Positions 7,892-41,934 of a DNA stretch of 64,000 bases are shown here, piece by piece. The position numbers and the translations under genes were made by a program. The stretch is from Terriglobia bacterium. Lineage in GTDB: Bacteria; Acidobacteriota; Terriglobia; Bryobacterales; Bryobacteraceae. Position 1 is the first letter of the stretch. Each line of letters opens with the position of its first letter. The notes beneath the pieces were generated by a model. It was given only the letters and a program-made list of their open reading frames with translations. It had not been told where the DNA came from and ran no database searches. The stretch spans positions 1 to 64,000 of the forward strand of contig JANYDS010000096.1 of NCBI GenBank assembly GCA_025363475.1, given 5' to 3'.

Positions 7892-8422
7892 ATGCTACGA
7901 TTCAGTGCAGTGTTTCCGCGTACACAGGCCAACCGGGACGAATTTGAAGCTGCGGCTCTTCCTTTTCTACCCGAAATTTACCGCACGGCAGTCGGCCTGA
8001 TCGGGAACCGGGATGAAGCCGAAGACTTGGCCCAGGATGTCTTCATGCAAGCCTGGAAGTCGTACCACCGCTTCGAGCCTGGCACCAACATGCGGGCCTG
8101 GCTGCACAAGATCCTCGTTTACCGTGCTTCTCATTTCCGAAACAAATTCTTCCGATTCATGCCATTCGGGAATAAAGAGGAGCAGGCTGTGGATATACCG
8201 GTTGAACCCGATGTCCCCGACCACCTCAGTGACCGGCAGGTTGCGGAGGCACTCAGCCAGGTTCCGCCGCCCTATCGCGAAACCCTGGTGCTTGCCGATG
8301 TGCGCGAATTTAGTTACCAGGAGGTTGCCGACATGTTGAAAATCCCGATTGGCACGGTGATGTCGCGCTTGAGTCGTGGCCGGAAACTCCTGCGAACCAA
8401 ACTGACGGAAAAAGGATTATGA
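7892..8422 (+). CDS. ECF RNA polymerase sigma factor
   Basis: Sigma-70 family protein of 176 residues with only regions 2 and 4. Region 2 shows AEDLAQDVFMQAW for core binding and the -10-recognising helices; region 4 shows SYQEVADMLKIPIGTVMSRLSRGR, a typical helix-turn-helix. Its stop overlaps the next gene by 4 bases (ATGA), the usual arrangement for a sigma factor with its membrane regulator. It is divergent from the cytochrome b/molybdenum oxidoreductase pair with only 39 bases between starts, so those genes are reasonable targets. Target promoters cannot be proven from the sequence. Confidence 0.93.
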   Translation: MLRFSAVFPRTQANRDEFEAAALPFLPEIYRTAVGLIGNRDEAEDLAQDVFMQAWKSYHRFEPGTNMRAWLHKILVYRASHFRNKFFRFMPFGNKEEQAVDIPVEPDVPDHLSDRQVAEALSQVPPPYRETLVLADVREFSYQEVADMLKIPIGTVMSRLSRGRKLLRTKLTEKGL

Positions 8423-9066
8423 AGCAAAGGGAACTTCTTCGCCGGGCAGTAGACGCGGAACTCGTTCCCCGGGATCTGGAAGCGCGTGTGCGGACAGGCC
8501 TCGGCCAAGGTTCAACCGCCCAATGGGGCAGGTTGCTCTCCAGCATCGCGATGCTGGTCATGGTTCTGGGCGGCATGCAGTTTTACGCGATGCAGAAAAC
8601 CCACACGCTCCAAAGGGTGGGGCTGGACGACCATTTACATTGCGCGATAGCGGGCGAATATCCGCATCAGACCGAAAAAGCAGTGATGGTGCAAGACCTT
8701 GGCCCGTACGCACCCATGCTTCAGCCCATTCTGGACCTGAGTCCCGGCGATCCGGTTGTTTCAGCGCACCGATGTACGGTAAGTGGGCGCACCTATGTTC
8801 ATGTGATCCTGCGGCGCGGTACGACCCTGGTTTCAGTTATTTTGACCCGCCGCCGGGATAAAGAGGCATTCCCTGGAACACTGGCGACACTGGTGTCCCA
8901 CGGGAATTCCGCGCATCTGCATGAGGGTGAAATGGGTGCGTATTCTGTTGCGGGCTTTGAGGCGGGGGCCTATCTGGGCTATGTAGTTTCGGCGCTGCCC
9001 GACCAGCAGAATAGTGAGCTGGCCGGGCGGGTTGCACCTGTCATCCGGCGTTACACCGGCGCTTGA
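8419..9066 (+). CDS. Membrane partner of the ECF sigma factor, probable anti-sigma/sensor
   Basis: A 215-residue protein translationally coupled to the sigma factor. A short cytoplasmic N-terminus (about 36 residues) is followed by one membrane segment (residues 37-57) and an outside domain of about 155 residues. No HxxxCxxC zinc anti-sigma motif is present in the cytoplasmic part. The outer domain has two H-x-C type motifs, DHLHC (72-75 for HLHC) and AHRC (116-119), and a nearby His128, which could bind a metal or heme or act as a redox switch. Position and topology support an anti-sigma or sensor role; the domain family itself is not named with certainty. Confidence 0.65.
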   Translation: MKQRELLRRAVDAELVPRDLEARVRTGLGQGSTAQWGRLLSSIAMLVMVLGGMQFYAMQKTHTLQRVGLDDHLHCAIAGEYPHQTEKAVMVQDLGPYAPMLQPILDLSPGDPVVSAHRCTVSGRTYVHVILRRGTTLVSVILTRRRDKEAFPGTLATLVSHGNSAHLHEGEMGAYSVAGFEAGAYLGYVVSALPDQQNSELAGRVAPVIRRYTGA

Positions 9067-29031: not shown

Positions 29032-29739
29032 ATGAATCCCGACCAGTTGGCCCTGGGTTTCCTCCAGTACGTCGTTTTCCTCTTTTCCACCACCTGTCAT
29101 GAGGCTGCACACGCCCTTGTCGCCAAATGGGGCGGGGACAATACGGCGCTCGATGGCGGCCATGTTTCGCTCAGTCCCCTGCCGCACATCAAACGTGAAC
29201 CCTTCGGCATGGTGATTATGCCCCTGATCGGTCTTTCCACCGGTTCCGGCCTCATCGGCTGGGCCAGCGTGCCGTATGACCCCCGGTGGGCACAGCAATT
29301 CCCCAAACGGGCGGCTTGGATGTCCCTCGCGGGCCCCGTTGCCAACTTCGCCCTGGCCATCATCGCCGCCATCCTCATGCGCGTCGGACTCGCCTTGGGT
29401 TCGTTTGTTCCGGCCGGACCTGCTTTCAGCCACATGGTCGCCGCACCCTCCGGCGAAGGCATCGCGGAAGGTGTCGCCACAGTACTCAGCGTATTTTTCT
29501 CGCTCAACCTGCTGCTCGGTACTTTTAACCTGATTCCGTTCCCGCCCCTCGACGGCTACGGTATCCTCGGCCTGTTCACTTCCGAACGCGGCGCGCTCCG
29601 TTTACAGGAGTTGCGCGTCAAGATGGGTGGCCTCGCCATCATCGGCCTGGTGCTGGCCTGGCAGGTTTTCGATCAGGTTTTCAATCCCGTCTTTTCCGCC
29701 GCAATCAATATTCTTTACCTCGGCGTGCGTTTCCCCTAA
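29032..29739 (+). CDS. Site-2 protease family protein (peptidase M50)
   Basis: 235 residues with about five membrane segments. The metal-binding motif HEAAH is in the first segment (residues 23-27) and the second site motif [10 protein letters not shown] is near residue 170, both as in rhomboid-unrelated S2P intramembrane zinc proteases. There is no PDZ domain, so it is a short form (the type that includes Bacillus SpoIVFB-like proteins). It could cleave membrane-bound regulatory proteins, perhaps anti-sigma factors. The stop codon lies in the hairpin that precedes cysD. Confidence 0.88.
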
Positions 29740-37867: not shown

Positions 37868-38317
37868 CTACAGATTCTTCAGTTCGTTCAGAAACGCCTG
37901 TTCATCCTGGAAATTCCGATAAACCGAAGCAAACCGAACATACGCAATCTTATCCACATCGCGCAGGGCATCCATCAGATATTCCCCAACTTCAATAGTG
38001 GTAATTTCCCGGTCCGGCGAATCTGTCACCCTCGATTCCACCTGATTCACCAGCTCCGACAGCTTAGGCATACTAACCGGCCGCTTCTCACAAGCTTTCA
38101 GCAAACCATTCAAAACCTTCTGGCGATCAAACTTCTCCCGACGCCCGTCCTTCTTGATCACCATGTAAGGCACTTCGTCAATCCGCTCATAAGTAGTGAA
38201 GCGCTTTTCGCACTCCTCACTCATGCACTGACGGCGGCGGCGGATGGAATCGCCCTCACGGCTCTCCCGCGAATCAATGACGCGGTCCTCAATATGGCCG
38301 CAAAATGGACATTTCAA
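37868..38317 (-). CDS. nrdR: Transcriptional repressor NrdR
   Basis: 149 residues with an N-terminal zinc ribbon (CPFCGHIEDRVIDSR, then CMSEEC) and a central ATP-cone domain (VIKKDGRREKFDRQKV). It senses (d)ATP and represses ribonucleotide reductase genes by binding NrdR boxes. No ribonucleotide reductase gene is in the window. It is 9 bases from the toxin-antitoxin locus and divergent from the sigma operon. Confidence 0.96.
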   Translation of the reverse strand: MKCPFCGHIEDRVIDSRESREGDSIRRRRQCMSEECEKRFTTYERIDEVPYMVIKKDGRREKFDRQKVLNGLLKACEKRPVSMPKLSELVNQVESRVTDSPDREITTIEVGEYLMDALRDVDKIAYVRFASVYRNFQDEQAFLNELKNL

Positions 38318-38345: not shown

Positions 38346-38370
38346 GAACCTATCATGGGTAAGCCTCGTT
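38346..38370 (+). promoter_or_regulatory. Candidate ECF-type promoter before the five-gene operon
   Basis: GAACC at 38346-38350 and CGTT at 38367-38370 are 16 bases apart, matching the usual GAAC..CGT(C) pattern of ECF sigma promoters, and the site is about 28 bases before the sigma gene's start. It fits autoregulation by the encoded sigma factor. This is a by-eye match only. Confidence 0.35.
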
Positions 38371-38398
38371 CCTCATAACGGAAGGATTCGAAAGGGAC

Positions 38399-39034
38399 AT
38401 GGCTGGAGTGGCAGTATCGGCGGTCTGGAACAGTACGAAAGCCGGTAGCTTGTCCGCAGCAGAGAATTTGGATCTGGACACTACAGTCGTAGAGCGTTGT
38501 CTGAGCGGGGACGACGCAGCCTGGGAAGAGCTGGTGCGCCTCCATTCGCGCCGGGTCTACGGGATCTGCTATCGCTTCACGGGCAAAGATTCGGAAGCTC
38601 AGGACCTCACCCAGGACGTGTTTCTGCGGGTGTTCCGGGCGCTGGGAAGCTTCCGGTCCACCGAAGGTTCCTTTGCCACCTGGCTGGCGCGGCTGACACG
38701 CAATCTGCTGATTGATCATTACCGCCGGACGCGGAATGAACGGGTCACCGATTCGATTGAAGAACAGCTGTCCGGTGTGGAAGCGCGCCACAGCATGGGC
38801 AGCCGAACGGACAGCGCCCTGGCTGGCCGTGAAGCAAGCGAACTGCTGCAGGCAGCACTGGCAAAACTTTCGCCGGAACTGCGGGAAACAATTATTTTAA
38901 GAGATTTGCAGGAGATGGAATACCGGGAAATTGCCGAAGTGCTGGCGATCCCCGAAGGAACGGTCAAATCCCGTTTAAACCGGGGGCGGGCGGAACTTGC
39001 TCGCCTCCTGCGGAAATACAGAGAAGCGGTATGA
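38399..39034 (+). CDS. ECF RNA polymerase sigma factor
   Basis: 211 residues, ATG with AAAGGGA upstream. Region 2 has DSEAQDLTQDVFLRVFRALG and TWLARLTRNLLIDHYRR; region 4 has MEYREIAEVLAIPEGTVKSRLNRGR. It resembles the RpoE/SigW group. It is the first gene of a five-gene run, each joined to the next by a 4-base ATGA overlap. The second gene encodes a zinc anti-sigma factor, so it is probably controlled by an envelope signal. Confidence 0.94.
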   Translation: MAGVAVSAVWNSTKAGSLSAAENLDLDTTVVERCLSGDDAAWEELVRLHSRRVYGICYRFTGKDSEAQDLTQDVFLRVFRALGSFRSTEGSFATWLARLTRNLLIDHYRRTRNERVTDSIEEQLSGVEARHSMGSRTDSALAGREASELLQAALAKLSPELRETIILRDLQEMEYREIAEVLAIPEGTVKSRLNRGRAELARLLRKYREAV

Positions 39035-39648
39035 ACGAACTGAACTGCGCGGATTTCGAAATTTTACTGGCTGACCATATCGACGGCGTGTTGCCGGCGA
39101 GTCGGCAGGGTGCGTTCGCGCGGCATAAAGAAACCTGCGCGGCATGTGCGCTCCTCGCTGAAGACGCCGAACTGGCGGTTGCATTCATGAGCCGGGTGGC
39201 CGATGTGGAAATGCCGCCGGTGCTGATGACGAAGATTCTCCATGCAACCAATTCCGGCTGGGAACTGAGCTTGCGCAGCAAGGGTCTGCGGGGCTGGATC
39301 AACCGGACCTTCGCACCCGTGCTGCAGCCGCGGTTCGTGCTGGGTGCGGTGTTCACCATGATCTCGGCAACAATGCTGACGCAATGCGCGGGCGTTCCGA
39401 AGAAGAACCTGGCAGCAGCGGATATGGATCCGGTGCGGCTGGTGAGTTCACTCGAAAATCGCACGCAGAGGATTTACGACCGGGCAGTAAAAAGTTACCA
39501 GAGCATGAAACTGATCTATGAGGTAAAGAGCCAGATCAGCGAGTGGTCACAACAGCAGAAGGAAGACGAAGAGGCGGCGGCGGACACACGAGCCAACGGT
39601 AAGAAGCTCGAACCGGCGCAGCCTGATGACAGGGGGACTAAAAAATGA
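39031..39648 (+). CDS. Zinc-binding anti-sigma factor
   Basis: 205 residues. The N-terminus has the anti-sigma zinc motif H32-x3-C36-x2-C39 (RHKETCAAC) that clamps the cognate sigma factor. A single hydrophobic segment around residues 105-125 (FVLGAVFTMISATMLTQC) would span the membrane, followed by a mostly helical, charged C-terminal region that ends in lysine/glutamate-rich repeats. That the sensor side lies outside is inferred from family topology. Coupled at both ends by ATGA overlaps. Confidence 0.88.
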   Translation: MNELNCADFEILLADHIDGVLPASRQGAFARHKETCAACALLAEDAELAVAFMSRVADVEMPPVLMTKILHATNSGWELSLRSKGLRGWINRTFAPVLQPRFVLGAVFTMISATMLTQCAGVPKKNLAAADMDPVRLVSSLENRTQRIYDRAVKSYQSMKLIYEVKSQISEWSQQQKEDEEAAADTRANGKKLEPAQPDDRGTKK

Positions 39649-40370
39649 ACTGCGCAAATCATGGAGAAGTAACGTCAGTGGCGTTCTGCCGGGAGTGCGG
39701 GAAGCCGATGTGTGCGGATTGTCAGCGCCCTGCACTCGGCTCGGTATTCTGCGCGGAACATGCACCCGTGACGGCAACTATTACACCGCAACTCACCGGC
39801 TCGGATGCACCGCCGCCCTCTCCTGAAACACCACGGGCTCAGCAGTATTCGGAATCACCCTACACATCAGCTGCGCCCCCGCGCCAGTGCGACATGAAGG
39901 CGCATCCCCTGCTTGCGCTGTTCCTCGGCTTTATCCCGGGCGTGGGTGCGCTTTACAACGGCCAATACGCCAAGGGCTTGATCCACGCAGTGGTGTTCGG
40001 CCTTCTGGTTAGCATCACCAGCAGTTCCCACGGCGCTATGGAGCCCTTGCTGGGCATCATGATCAGCGCCTGGGTGTTTTACATGGCATTTGAAGCTTTC
40101 CACACCGCGAGGAAGCGGCGGGAGGGTGATTCAGTGGAAGAGTTTTCCAGCCTTTTCGACATCAAGCCGACGCAGGGGCGGTTCCCGGCAGGGGCGGTTC
40201 TGCTGATCGCGCTGGGCTTTATCCTGCTGCTCGACACTACCGATTTAATCGATACCTACCAGCTGGAACGGTTTTGGCCCGTAGGCCTGATTGTCTTCGG
40301 CGGCTATCTGCTTTATTCGCGGCTCGCGGGTGACCGTTCCGCAACACGTAATGCTGAGGTGCCGCGATGA
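39645..40370 (+). CDS. B-box-type zinc finger membrane protein with DUF5668-like C-terminus
   Basis: 241 residues. The first 40 residues are a B-box-like zinc finger (Cys3, His6, Cys15, Cys18, Cys23, Cys26, Cys36, His39), a fold that mediates protein-protein contacts. A polar linker leads to hydrophobic segments (HPLLALFLGFIPGVGALY, ALIHAVVFGLLVS-like, FPAGAVLLIALGFILLL). The C-terminus (LERFWPVGLIVFGGYLLYSR) matches the DUF5668/LiaF-type hydrophobic repeat. It probably sits in the membrane with the finger facing the cytoplasm. Confidence 0.8.
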   Translation: MNCANHGEVTSVAFCRECGKPMCADCQRPALGSVFCAEHAPVTATITPQLTGSDAPPPSPETPRAQQYSESPYTSAAPPRQCDMKAHPLLALFLGFIPGVGALYNGQYAKGLIHAVVFGLLVSITSSSHGAMEPLLGIMISAWVFYMAFEAFHTARKRREGDSVEEFSSLFDIKPTQGRFPAGAVLLIALGFILLLDTTDLIDTYQLERFWPVGLIVFGGYLLYSRLAGDRSATRNAEVPR

Positions 40371-40579
40371 ATATCGAGAGCCGGTCTTTAGTGCGGGCCA
40401 TTCGCGGTCCGGTGATCCTGATCACAGTGGGCGTATTGTTTGCCTTCGATACCATGTCGGAGATCCGGTTTAGCCAGACGTGGCCGGTGTTGCTGATTGT
40501 CATTGGCCTCCTCAGCCTGGCAGGTGGCGGTCGTCCCCGCCGTGAGCGCAATAGCATTGATCCCGGAGGCCCGCAATGA
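40367..40579 (+). CDS. Small DUF5668 membrane protein
   Basis: 70 residues with two hydrophobic segments separated by the short loop FDTMSEIRFSQTW, the typical pattern GPVILITVGVLFAF ... WPVLLIVIGLLSLAGG of LiaF-like DUF5668 units. The C-terminal tail is basic. It overlaps both neighbours by 4 bases. It repeats the motif found at the C-terminus of the preceding protein and the N-terminus of the next, so the three may pack together in the membrane. Confidence 0.8.
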   Translation: MNIESRSLVRAIRGPVILITVGVLFAFDTMSEIRFSQTWPVLLIVIGLLSLAGGGRPRRERNSIDPGGPQ

Positions 40580-41934
40580 GAGGCCGGTCCATTACAGGTC
40601 CGGTCGTCCTGATAGCCCTTGGAATTCTGTTCCTGATCGGCAACCTGCGGCCTGATTTTTCTCCGTTCGCCGCGCTCTCACGCTACTGGCCCTTCCTGCT
40701 GATTGTGACGGGCGTCGCAGGTCTGGTGGAGGTCCTCTTTTACGCCAGCCGGGGCGATGAACCCTGTCCGCGCCCCCTGGGTGGCGGCTGGGTTTTCTGG
40801 GTCATTTTCTGGTGCGTCCTGGCGGGAGTTTTCGGCGGGCGCAACGGCAATGTTCACATCGGTCCCTGGATGGGTTTTAACGGCAACGGAATGTCCGTCT
40901 TCGGCTCCAGTTACGATTACGATCTGGCGCCTGGCACCATGCAGCAAGTGGCTTCTCAGGGCGTCACACGCATTCTGGTGGATAACGGACGCGGCAGTGT
41001 TTCGGTCCGCGGCGATGCTTCGGGCGATGTGAAAGTGACAGGTCGCAAATCCATCCGGGCGATGAGCCGCGGAGATGCGGACCGGGCCAATCAACAGGGC
41101 GGCTTCGACCTCGAACGGCAGGGCGACACGCTGCTCGTCAGGGTTCAGGCTCCGGATCGCGGTTCCATCCAGATTACGAGCGATCTTGAACTAACCATCC
41201 CGCGCGGCCTCAATCTGGAAGTTCGCGGCAAGCGTGGCGACGTGACAGTGGACGACGTTGACGGCGGCGTCGATATATCATCTGCGCGGGGCGATGTGCG
41301 CCTGAGCCGAATCGGCAAAGACGTCAGGATTGACGGAGTACGCACCAGTCTTATCCGCGTTTCCGACTCCAAAGGCGCCGTGGACCTGCAGGGCCGGGGC
41401 GGCGATGTGCAGCTGGAAAATATCGCCGGCCAGGTGACTATCAGCGGCGAATATTCAGGCACGCTGGAGTTCCGCGCGCTGGCGAAACCAATGCACTTCC
41501 AGTCCGCCCGCACGGAGTTTAGAACGGAAGCTGTTCCAGGTTTCATCACCATGGATCTGGGAAACCTGAAGCTGACGAACGTAACCGGGCCGGTGCGGTT
41601 CTCTACCGGAACCCGTGATATCGAGGCTGTGGATGTCTCGAATGCGATCGACTTCACTGTGGAGCGCGGCGACATCGAAGTGACGGCGGCGAAAAGCCCG
41701 CTGCCGAAAATGGACGTCCGTTCCCGCCACGGCGACATTACAGTTTCCCTTTCCGACAAGACCGGCTTCCAGCTTAGAGGCTCAACCAGCCAGGGCGAAG
41801 CGGTCAACCAGTTCGGCGCACCTCTCACCTCGCAAAGCAAAGGGCGCGGAGCAGTCATCGAAGGCAAGAGCGGTACCGGGCCGGAAATCAATCTGGAGAC
41901 GGACCGCGGCAGCCTGACGATTAAGAAACTGTAG
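40576..41934 (+). CDS. DUF5668 plus DUF4097 (toastrack) beta-repeat envelope protein
   Basis: 452 residues. Residues 1-75 repeat the membrane unit (GPVVLIALGILFLIGNL, WPFLLIVTGVAGLVEVLFY), followed by another hydrophobic segment (WVFWVIFWCVLAGVFGG). From residue about 120 to the end is a long right-handed beta repeat (VSVRGDASGDVKVTGR, VEVRGKRGDVTVDDVDGG-like, SLTIKKL) of the DUF4097 family, in which each turn adds a short strand with Gly-Asp. Such toastrack domains occur in LiaF and PspC-type envelope stress systems. It probably senses or strengthens the envelope. Confidence 0.82.
   Translation: MRGRSITGPVVLIALGILFLIGNLRPDFSPFAALSRYWPFLLIVTGVAGLVEVLFYASRGDEPCPRPLGGGWVFWVIFWCVLAGVFGGRNGNVHIGPWMGFNGNGMSVFGSSYDYDLAPGTMQQVASQGVTRILVDNGRGSVSVRGDASGDVKVTGRKSIRAMSRGDADRANQQGGFDLERQGDTLLVRVQAPDRGSIQITSDLELTIPRGLNLEVRGKRGDVTVDDVDGGVDISSARGDVRLSRIGKDVRIDGVRTSLIRVSDSKGAVDLQGRGGDVQLENIAGQVTISGEYSGTLEFRALAKPMHFQSARTEFRTEAVPGFITMDLGNLKLTNVTGPVRFSTGTRDIEAVDVSNAIDFTVERGDIEVTAAKSPLPKMDVRSRHGDITVSLSDKTGFQLRGSTSQGEAVNQFGAPLTSQSKGRGAVIEGKSGTGPEINLETDRGSLTIKKL

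Follow-up and report, generated by a model that had tools for sequence, protein, structure and literature searches.

The nearest working model for the locus described here is, by analogy, the sigma-W/RsiW pair of Bacillus subtilis, a sigma factor and its anti-sigma factor that answer envelope stress. According to the passages available, sigma-W controls the operon yvlABCD (PMC3498285), and YvlB is a toastrack protein (PMC12791056). In a second group of systems, LiaIH-GFSR and VraTSR, proteins with LiaI/LiaF transmembrane (TM) domains and toastrack proteins are encoded in a regulatory operon together with a kinase and a response regulator. Furthermore, Ravi et al. 2024 (PMC11237479) describe, in a passage centred on DUF2089, toastrack contexts with DUF2089, B-box and LiaI-LiaF-TM domains and an operonically linked sigma factor, through which a transcriptional output is suggested. 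Neither an anti-sigma factor nor a promoter or a phylum-wide survey features in the passages of that paper, and the word stem "acidobacter" is absent from its main text. Here we describe an operon of five genes located at positions 38399-41934 on the forward strand of a 64,000-nucleotide stretch, hereafter the window, from contig JANYDS010000096.1 (C47 in our numbering) of a Terriglobia bacterium in the family Bryobacteraceae of the Acidobacteriota.

The operon encodes a putative extracytoplasmic function (ECF) sigma factor, a zinc anti-sigma factor and three membrane proteins, and we consider it probable that these make up an autoregulated sigma/anti-sigma envelope-stress module with membrane partners. 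It resembles the B. subtilis system in that a sigma factor is paired with a single-TM anti-sigma factor with CHCC zinc ligands and in that a toastrack gene would be under sigma control. In contrast to B. subtilis, the toastrack and Lia genes are located inside the sigma operon itself, and the proteins carry LiaI/LiaF TM and TM2-like domains rather than PspC. The likeness to LiaIH-GFSR and VraTSR lies in the LiaI/LiaF TM domains and the toastrack protein, whereas the ECF sigma and anti-sigma factors here replace the kinase and response regulator; no LiaRS kinase or response regulator was found among the five operon genes or the inspected neighbours, and the score for the LiaG equivalog was 31.1 against a cut-off of 285. 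PspA is encoded outside the operon, and its single match in the genome is on contig C34, where no match to the promoter pattern of the operon was found. Apart from the passage in PMC11237479, a literature search that left most subscription papers and the ECF classification outside its scope yielded no paper on the acidobacterial operon, and the passages of PMC3174227 and PMC7406223 contained no acidobacterial case of such an operon. An ECF group number for the sigma factor may already exist.

Genes and predicted proteins

The gene boundaries were taken from the open reading frames (ORFs) and from direct reading of the sequence. The first gene (38399-39034) codes for a protein of 211 amino acids with sigma-2 and sigma-4 regions, which matched Sigma70_r2 with 78.6 bits and r4_2 with 61.7 bits in Pfam, and TIGR02937 in NCBIfam with 125.4 bits against a cut-off of 42.9. 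The protein has 17 matches in its own genome, which is 4.16 Mb in size and 96% complete, and the next best of them is 35% identical. Another ECF-like sigma gene was noted in the window at 7892-9066 on the forward strand (match at C47:7976-8395), with a 4-base overlap with the next gene.

The second gene (39031-39648) codes for an RsiW-like zinc anti-sigma factor, with a zf-HC2 score of 23.6 bits against the Pfam cut-off of 22.2 and one TM helix at about residues 102 to 120 by hydropathy. Its profile matched Bacillus RsiW (5wuq) with an E value of 3.2e-9 over profile positions 1 to 76. The ligands C6, H32, C36 and C39 were invariant in 30 aligned sequences, that of the window included, and their layout is the same as that of the RsiW ligands C3, H30, C34 and C37 (PMC5358783, in the passages available). 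With Cn-H-X3-C-X2-C ligands beside an ECF gene, the protein falls into class I of the zinc-binding anti-sigma (ZAS) proteins. The tail beyond the membrane helix contains D131, P134, R147 and R151, which were also invariant in the 30 sequences, and it would lie outside the cytoplasm provided that the N-terminus is inside. Tandem zinc anti-sigma domains, two per protein, were observed in some other acidobacterial families (L131, L133, L144, L146, L147, L148, L150 and others).

The invariant CHCC ligands are also what would be expected if the anti-sigma factor itself sensed redox state or zinc, as RsrA does, with the membrane proteins being incidental. We regard this as very unlikely, because RsiW, the best solved match, is described in the passages of PMC5358783 as keeping its sigma factor when oxidised, and because the membrane helix and the invariant residues of the tail beyond it suggest a signal from the outside.

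The third gene (39645-40370) codes for a membrane protein with an N-terminal zinc finger, a TM2-like domain that scored below the Pfam cut-off, and a LiaI/LiaF TM domain, as judged from Pfam, an alignment and an AlphaFold2 model. The fourth gene (40367-40579) codes for a LiaI/LiaF-like membrane protein of 70 amino acids with two hydrophobic stretches, and the fifth (40576-41934) for a protein in which a Lia TM domain of three helices is followed by a DUF4097 toastrack domain. The last three proteins scored, in order, 35.2, 29.3 and 30.8 bits for PF18917, which we take to be the former DUF5668, against a gathering cut-off of 27.

The score of the fifth protein for DUF4097 was 38.8 bits against a Pfam cut-off of 22.9. 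In the AlphaFold2 model, which has a mean predicted local distance difference test (pLDDT) value of 86.9, helices at residues 7-24, 30-58 and 71-89 are followed by strands at 111-451 that form a predicted beta-helix. Foldseek matched the model to 4qrk (E value 2.2e-8), 3pet and 4opw, with query TM-scores of only 0.15 to 0.24 in the five best matches; 4qrk and 4opw are named as toastrack examples in the passages of PMC11237479. A sequence search of the PDB with this protein gave only weak, unrelated matches. Judged from sequence comparisons, the components of the operon are known families, the finger by a near miss only.

The original prediction, made from the letters of the window and their translated ORFs, had named an ECF sigma gene, a zinc anti-sigma gene, a DUF5668 unit recurring in three adjacent proteins and a toastrack beta-repeat in the last of them, and the matches given above agree with each of these assignments. 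It had also described a 4-base ATGA overlap at every junction, and these are indeed present at 39031, 39645, 40367 and 40576. Among the other same-strand neighbour pairs in the window, as obtained from rough gene calls, 5 of 34 overlap by 4 bases, so that four overlaps in succession would have a probability of about 5e-4, assuming that the junctions are independent. The claim that all five genes are strictly coupled in translation was not supported as a property of the system. Over 41 Bryobacteraceae loci, that of the window included, the 4-base overlap was found in 30, 18, 10 and 28 loci at the successive junctions from sigma/anti-sigma to 70-aa/toastrack, and at all four junctions in only three, namely L075, L103 (where one of the overlaps is GTGA) and the window. 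Close packing of the genes is usual, but an ATGA at each junction is no rule.

Conservation of the gene set and its promoter

The third protein was matched in 99 of the 101 Bryobacteraceae genomes, with one match being short and weak. Across the phylum it was matched in 183 of 297 genomes by a single-sequence query and in 232 of 297 by a 27-row profile (E value 1e-5); 53 of the 232 profile matches have E values worse than 1e-20 and may be partial. We fetched 100 loci, corresponding to 40 of the 99 matching Bryobacteraceae genomes, 20 of 30 from a second family of the same class, presumably Acidobacteriaceae, and 40 from other families. The loci were selected by their third protein so as to cover a range of genera and families, with a preference for better matches, and the gene counts rest on domain profiles built from the same loci.

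All five genes were present, in order, in 40 of the 40 Bryobacteraceae loci; the original prediction had staked itself on their linkage in relatives, and the linkage is thus kept. In the second family, the sigma, anti-sigma, membrane protein and toastrack genes were found in 20 of 20 loci, with a separate small Lia gene in 7. In the other families, a same-strand sigma gene was located close upstream of the third gene in 38 of 40 loci, and a recognised zinc anti-sigma gene was present in 32, a toastrack gene in 14 and a small Lia gene in 10. Given that the third protein guided the choice of loci, the counts show what accompanies the third gene and not where the module is absent. The toastrack gene is present in every fetched locus of the first two families and patchy elsewhere. 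The counts over the three groups suggest that the core of the module is most likely the sigma factor, the anti-sigma factor and the TM2/Lia protein.

A scan of a genome collection with the third protein gave a second sample of 80 named loci, which are the best 80 of 417 relatives. All of them are acidobacterial, with many from Bryobacterales, Bryobacteraceae or Solibacteraceae, and 72 contained all five genes, in every case in order. Seven of the 8 incomplete loci lacked genes at a sequence end, and the remaining one, L260, had no recognised anti-sigma gene. The two samples overlap, and together contain 118 loci with a sigma gene, 97 of which are distinct; among the 56 additional distinct named loci with a sigma gene, 51 were complete with the five genes in order. 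Pairwise distances of the five proteins were correlated over 72 loci, with r values of 0.67 to 0.86 compared to at most 0.12 in 200 permutations. This would fit co-inheritance as a unit, although plain vertical descent would give the same result.

The finger of the third protein was examined across the same loci. Its ligands are C3, H6, C15, C18, C23, C26, C36 and H39, and they were invariant in 37 aligned sequences, which is partly by construction, as the rows were chosen by finger match. The AlphaFold2 model has pLDDT values of about 94 to 97 by block over the finger. For the B-box finger of the original prediction, the zf-B_box score of 22.5 is just under the Pfam cut-off of 24.1, and the final ligand pair is C-X2-H. 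A weak profile match to TRIM28 was found (E value 0.0035), and Foldseek gave nothing with an E value below 0.9 for the finger/membrane protein; the matches of the finger were one finger of a synaptotagmin-like protein and LIM domains.

It had been suggested that this finger may recruit the sigma or anti-sigma factor. In addition to the invariant ligands and the high-confidence predicted fold, the eight-ligand form was observed in 64 of the 80 named loci, 24 of the 41 Bryobacteraceae loci, 15 of 20 in the second family and 12 of 40 in the other families. A four-ligand form was found instead in 10, 17, 4 and 0 of these loci, respectively, and neither pattern in 6, 0, 1 and 28. The sigma gene is nevertheless retained where the finger is halved or absent. 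Because 28 of the 40 other-family loci have neither pattern and a sigma gene is close upstream in 38 of the 40, a role of the finger as a necessary recruiter is not supported, and we consider recruitment through it unlikely.

The promoter GAACC-N16-CGTT that had been predicted upstream of the sigma gene was confirmed by direct reading at 38346-38370 on the forward strand, and it is conserved among relatives. The pattern GAAC-N17-CGT precedes the sigma gene in 95 of the 97 distinct Bryobacteraceae loci, and one of the two exceptions, L079, carries such a site farther upstream. By group, it was present in 40 of 41 Bryobacteraceae loci, 18 of 20 loci in the second family and 27 of 37 in other families, as compared to 1.1, 0.5 and 0.5 in shuffled sequence. 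The usual meaning of such a promoter is that an ECF factor reads its own operon, and its presence in 95 of the 97 loci makes autoregulation of the operon by its sigma factor likely. A -35 sequence was also sought in PMC6713349, and none was found there.

Candidate mechanism and alternatives

The combination of an RsiW-like anti-sigma factor with the precedent of Bacillus sigma-W driving a toastrack operon makes an envelope-stress module the best reading of the locus. The ECF sigma factor would be held at the membrane by the anti-sigma factor, with the CHCC domain inside, one helix in the membrane and a helical tail outside. The TM2/Lia protein, which is retained more widely than the other partners, would sit beside the anti-sigma factor in the membrane. 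In this lineage, the set would be completed by the small Lia protein and by the toastrack protein, whose beta-helix most likely faces the periplasm. Upon disturbance of the envelope, the anti-sigma factor would let go of the sigma factor, which could then read its own operon from the GAAC(C/T)T-N15-CGTT promoter and yield more sigma factor and membrane proteins. At their raised levels, the membrane proteins may act to restrain the response or, alternatively, to protect the membrane. The gene set and its order, the conserved promoter, the pattern of zinc ligands, the domain families and the predicted folds are documented here; we infer the signal, the release step, the topology, the direction of the effects of the membrane proteins and the wider regulon, and the proteins of the operon may bind one another. 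Of the acidobacterial envelope-sensing system in the original prediction, the packed unit, the promoter, the linkage, the Lia and toastrack proteins and the RsiW-like anti-sigma factor have stood, the finger as a necessary recruiter has not been supported, and sensing of the envelope would hold by analogy.

Several observations weigh against the envelope-stress module. The sigma factor is far below the cut-offs for the SigW and SigE equivalogs (120.6 against 209 for PRK09641, and 144 against 265 for PRK09647), and PrsW (PF13367), the site-1 protease of RsiW, had no match in the 96% complete genome; both are also differences from B. subtilis. The known RsiW route can therefore not simply be carried over, and release would need another first step. 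PF13367 had matches in 4 of 14 control genomes. M50 site-2 proteases had three matches in the genome, which says little because all 14 control genomes match too; one such match is located in the window at 29071-29592 on the forward strand, about 9 kb upstream of the operon. Furthermore, the toastrack gene was not found in 26 of the 40 other-family loci, nor the zinc anti-sigma gene in 8 of them. Finally, the promoter of the operon itself was the only assignable one among 9 strict matches to the promoter pattern in the genome, and 7 of the other 8 were inside an ORF of at least 120 amino acids. The remaining match, at L173, is located 37 bases before a gene and outside all ORFs of 120 amino acids. 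This ORF filter is imperfect, as the site of the operon itself also lies under a spurious ORF. Reversed controls gave 1 strict match, and the loose pattern gave 54 matches compared to 28 in the controls; 32 of the matching loci were inspected and 29 of them placed. The attempt to define a regulon by the promoter pattern was dropped, as the matches were insufficient to name members.

The sigma and anti-sigma factors might also do the sensing alone, with the three membrane proteins being an output that shores up the membrane, as Psp and Yvl do under sigma-W, and having no part in signalling. In favour of this reading, the Bacillus toastrack operon yvlABCD is a sigma-W target, the toastrack and 70-aa genes are present in some loci and missing from others, and the conserved promoter precedes the whole set of five genes. 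However, a sigma gene was located close upstream of the third gene in 98 of the 100 fetched loci, a closer association than one of many targets would be expected to show, albeit in loci selected because the third protein matched well, and the known relative LiaF is described as a signalling inhibitor in the passages of PMC12791056. We therefore hold this explanation to be plausible but somewhat more probably wrong than right. That the third gene stays with the sigma gene across many families suggests a part in regulation for the third protein at least.

By a simple hydropathy count, three membrane helices precede the toastrack in 38 of the 41 Bryobacteraceae proteins and 18 of the 20 proteins in the second family, and two in the remaining five. 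For the 14 other-family proteins, a script that covered only part of some N-termini counted one helix in nine, three helices in three, and five and no helices in one protein each; by eye, there are five helices in L144, L156 and L165 and one in L135. Positive charges suggest that the N-terminus is cytoplasmic, and with mostly odd numbers of helices (1, 3, 5) the toastrack would therefore face the periplasm. The genome contains two further DUF4097 genes, each beside another ECF gene, with starts that by eye resemble a signal peptide and a lipoprotein. The ECF-toastrack pairing thus recurs within the genome: on contig C88 (L206 2243-5129) there is a run of an ECF sigma gene, an anti-sigma-like gene, an unassigned gene and a DUF4097 gene, and on contig C12 (L205 2453-4062) the lipoprotein-like DUF4097 gene is divergent from an ECF sigma gene. 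In the passages of the two papers, the toastrack is predicted to be intracellular (PMC11237479) and that of LiaG is called extracellular (PMC9239133). For the proteins studied here we favour the outside of the membrane, judging from the predicted topology.

A bolder version of the envelope-stress module, which we consider doubtful, is that the operon is a Lia/Psp membrane guard wired by a sigma/anti-sigma pair instead of a two-component pair, as a phylum-wide third way, in which the periplasmic toastrack docks on the conserved outer tail of the anti-sigma factor and gates the release of the sigma factor without PrsW. If so, the toastrack of this operon would act as a sensor outside the cytoplasm, in conflict with the intracellular location predicted in the literature.

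Neighbouring genes and significance

The operon is preceded by a divergent gene, nrdR (37868-38317, reverse strand), and followed by zwf, gnd and pgi on the opposite strand, all named from a reading of their translations. A relative of nrdR was located near the operon in 38 of the 40 fetched family loci and in 85 of the 97 distinct loci. In 63 of the 95 distinct Bryobacteraceae loci that have a promoter site, a divergent gene coding for an LPG_synthase_TM domain (PF03706; for example L083 2060-3061, reverse strand) was located between nrdR and the operon, such that the promoter region is common to both.

It was also noted that the promoter spacer tends to carry ATGATAA in Bryobacteraceae. The full spacer pattern was found in 67 of 101 genomes, compared to 3 in reversed controls, mostly on the same contig as the third gene and in at least four cases on another contig. 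Recognition of the spacer by the sigma factor was rejected, as no genome has more than one copy of the full pattern. The mean match to ATGATAA was 5.49 of 7 in the 63 distinct loci with the divergent LPG_synthase_TM gene and 3.00 of 7 in the 32 without it, and the match was perfect in 28 of 63 and 2 of 32 loci, respectively, with kinship uncorrected in both comparisons. The conservation would be expected if a divergent promoter overlapped that of the sigma gene. In the window there is no LPG_synthase_TM gene at this place, nrdR is the gene next to the promoter, and 4 of the 7 spacer positions match; the sole PF03706 match of the genome is on another contig. In the family loci, TGGAAG tends to lie 33 to 38 bases past the G of GAAC, near the expected transcription start, and by a loose pattern it was found in 54 of 115 loci, duplicates included. 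Its counterpart in the window is CGGAAG at 38379-38384.

To our knowledge, little is known about the regulation of stress responses in acidobacteria. The passages of PMC7074687 state that Acidobacteria make up 20% to 50% of soil communities, and report that a gene annotated as sigW, which may or may not correspond to the sigma gene of the operon, is up in Granulicella at high sugar. Beyond the Bryobacteraceae, the core of the module is present in many families of the phylum. The operon also offers a way to settle the side of the toastrack, which is placed inside in the passages of PMC11237479 and, for LiaG, outside in those of PMC9239133. If the proposal is true, Lia/Psp membrane proteins can plug into a sigma/anti-sigma switch.

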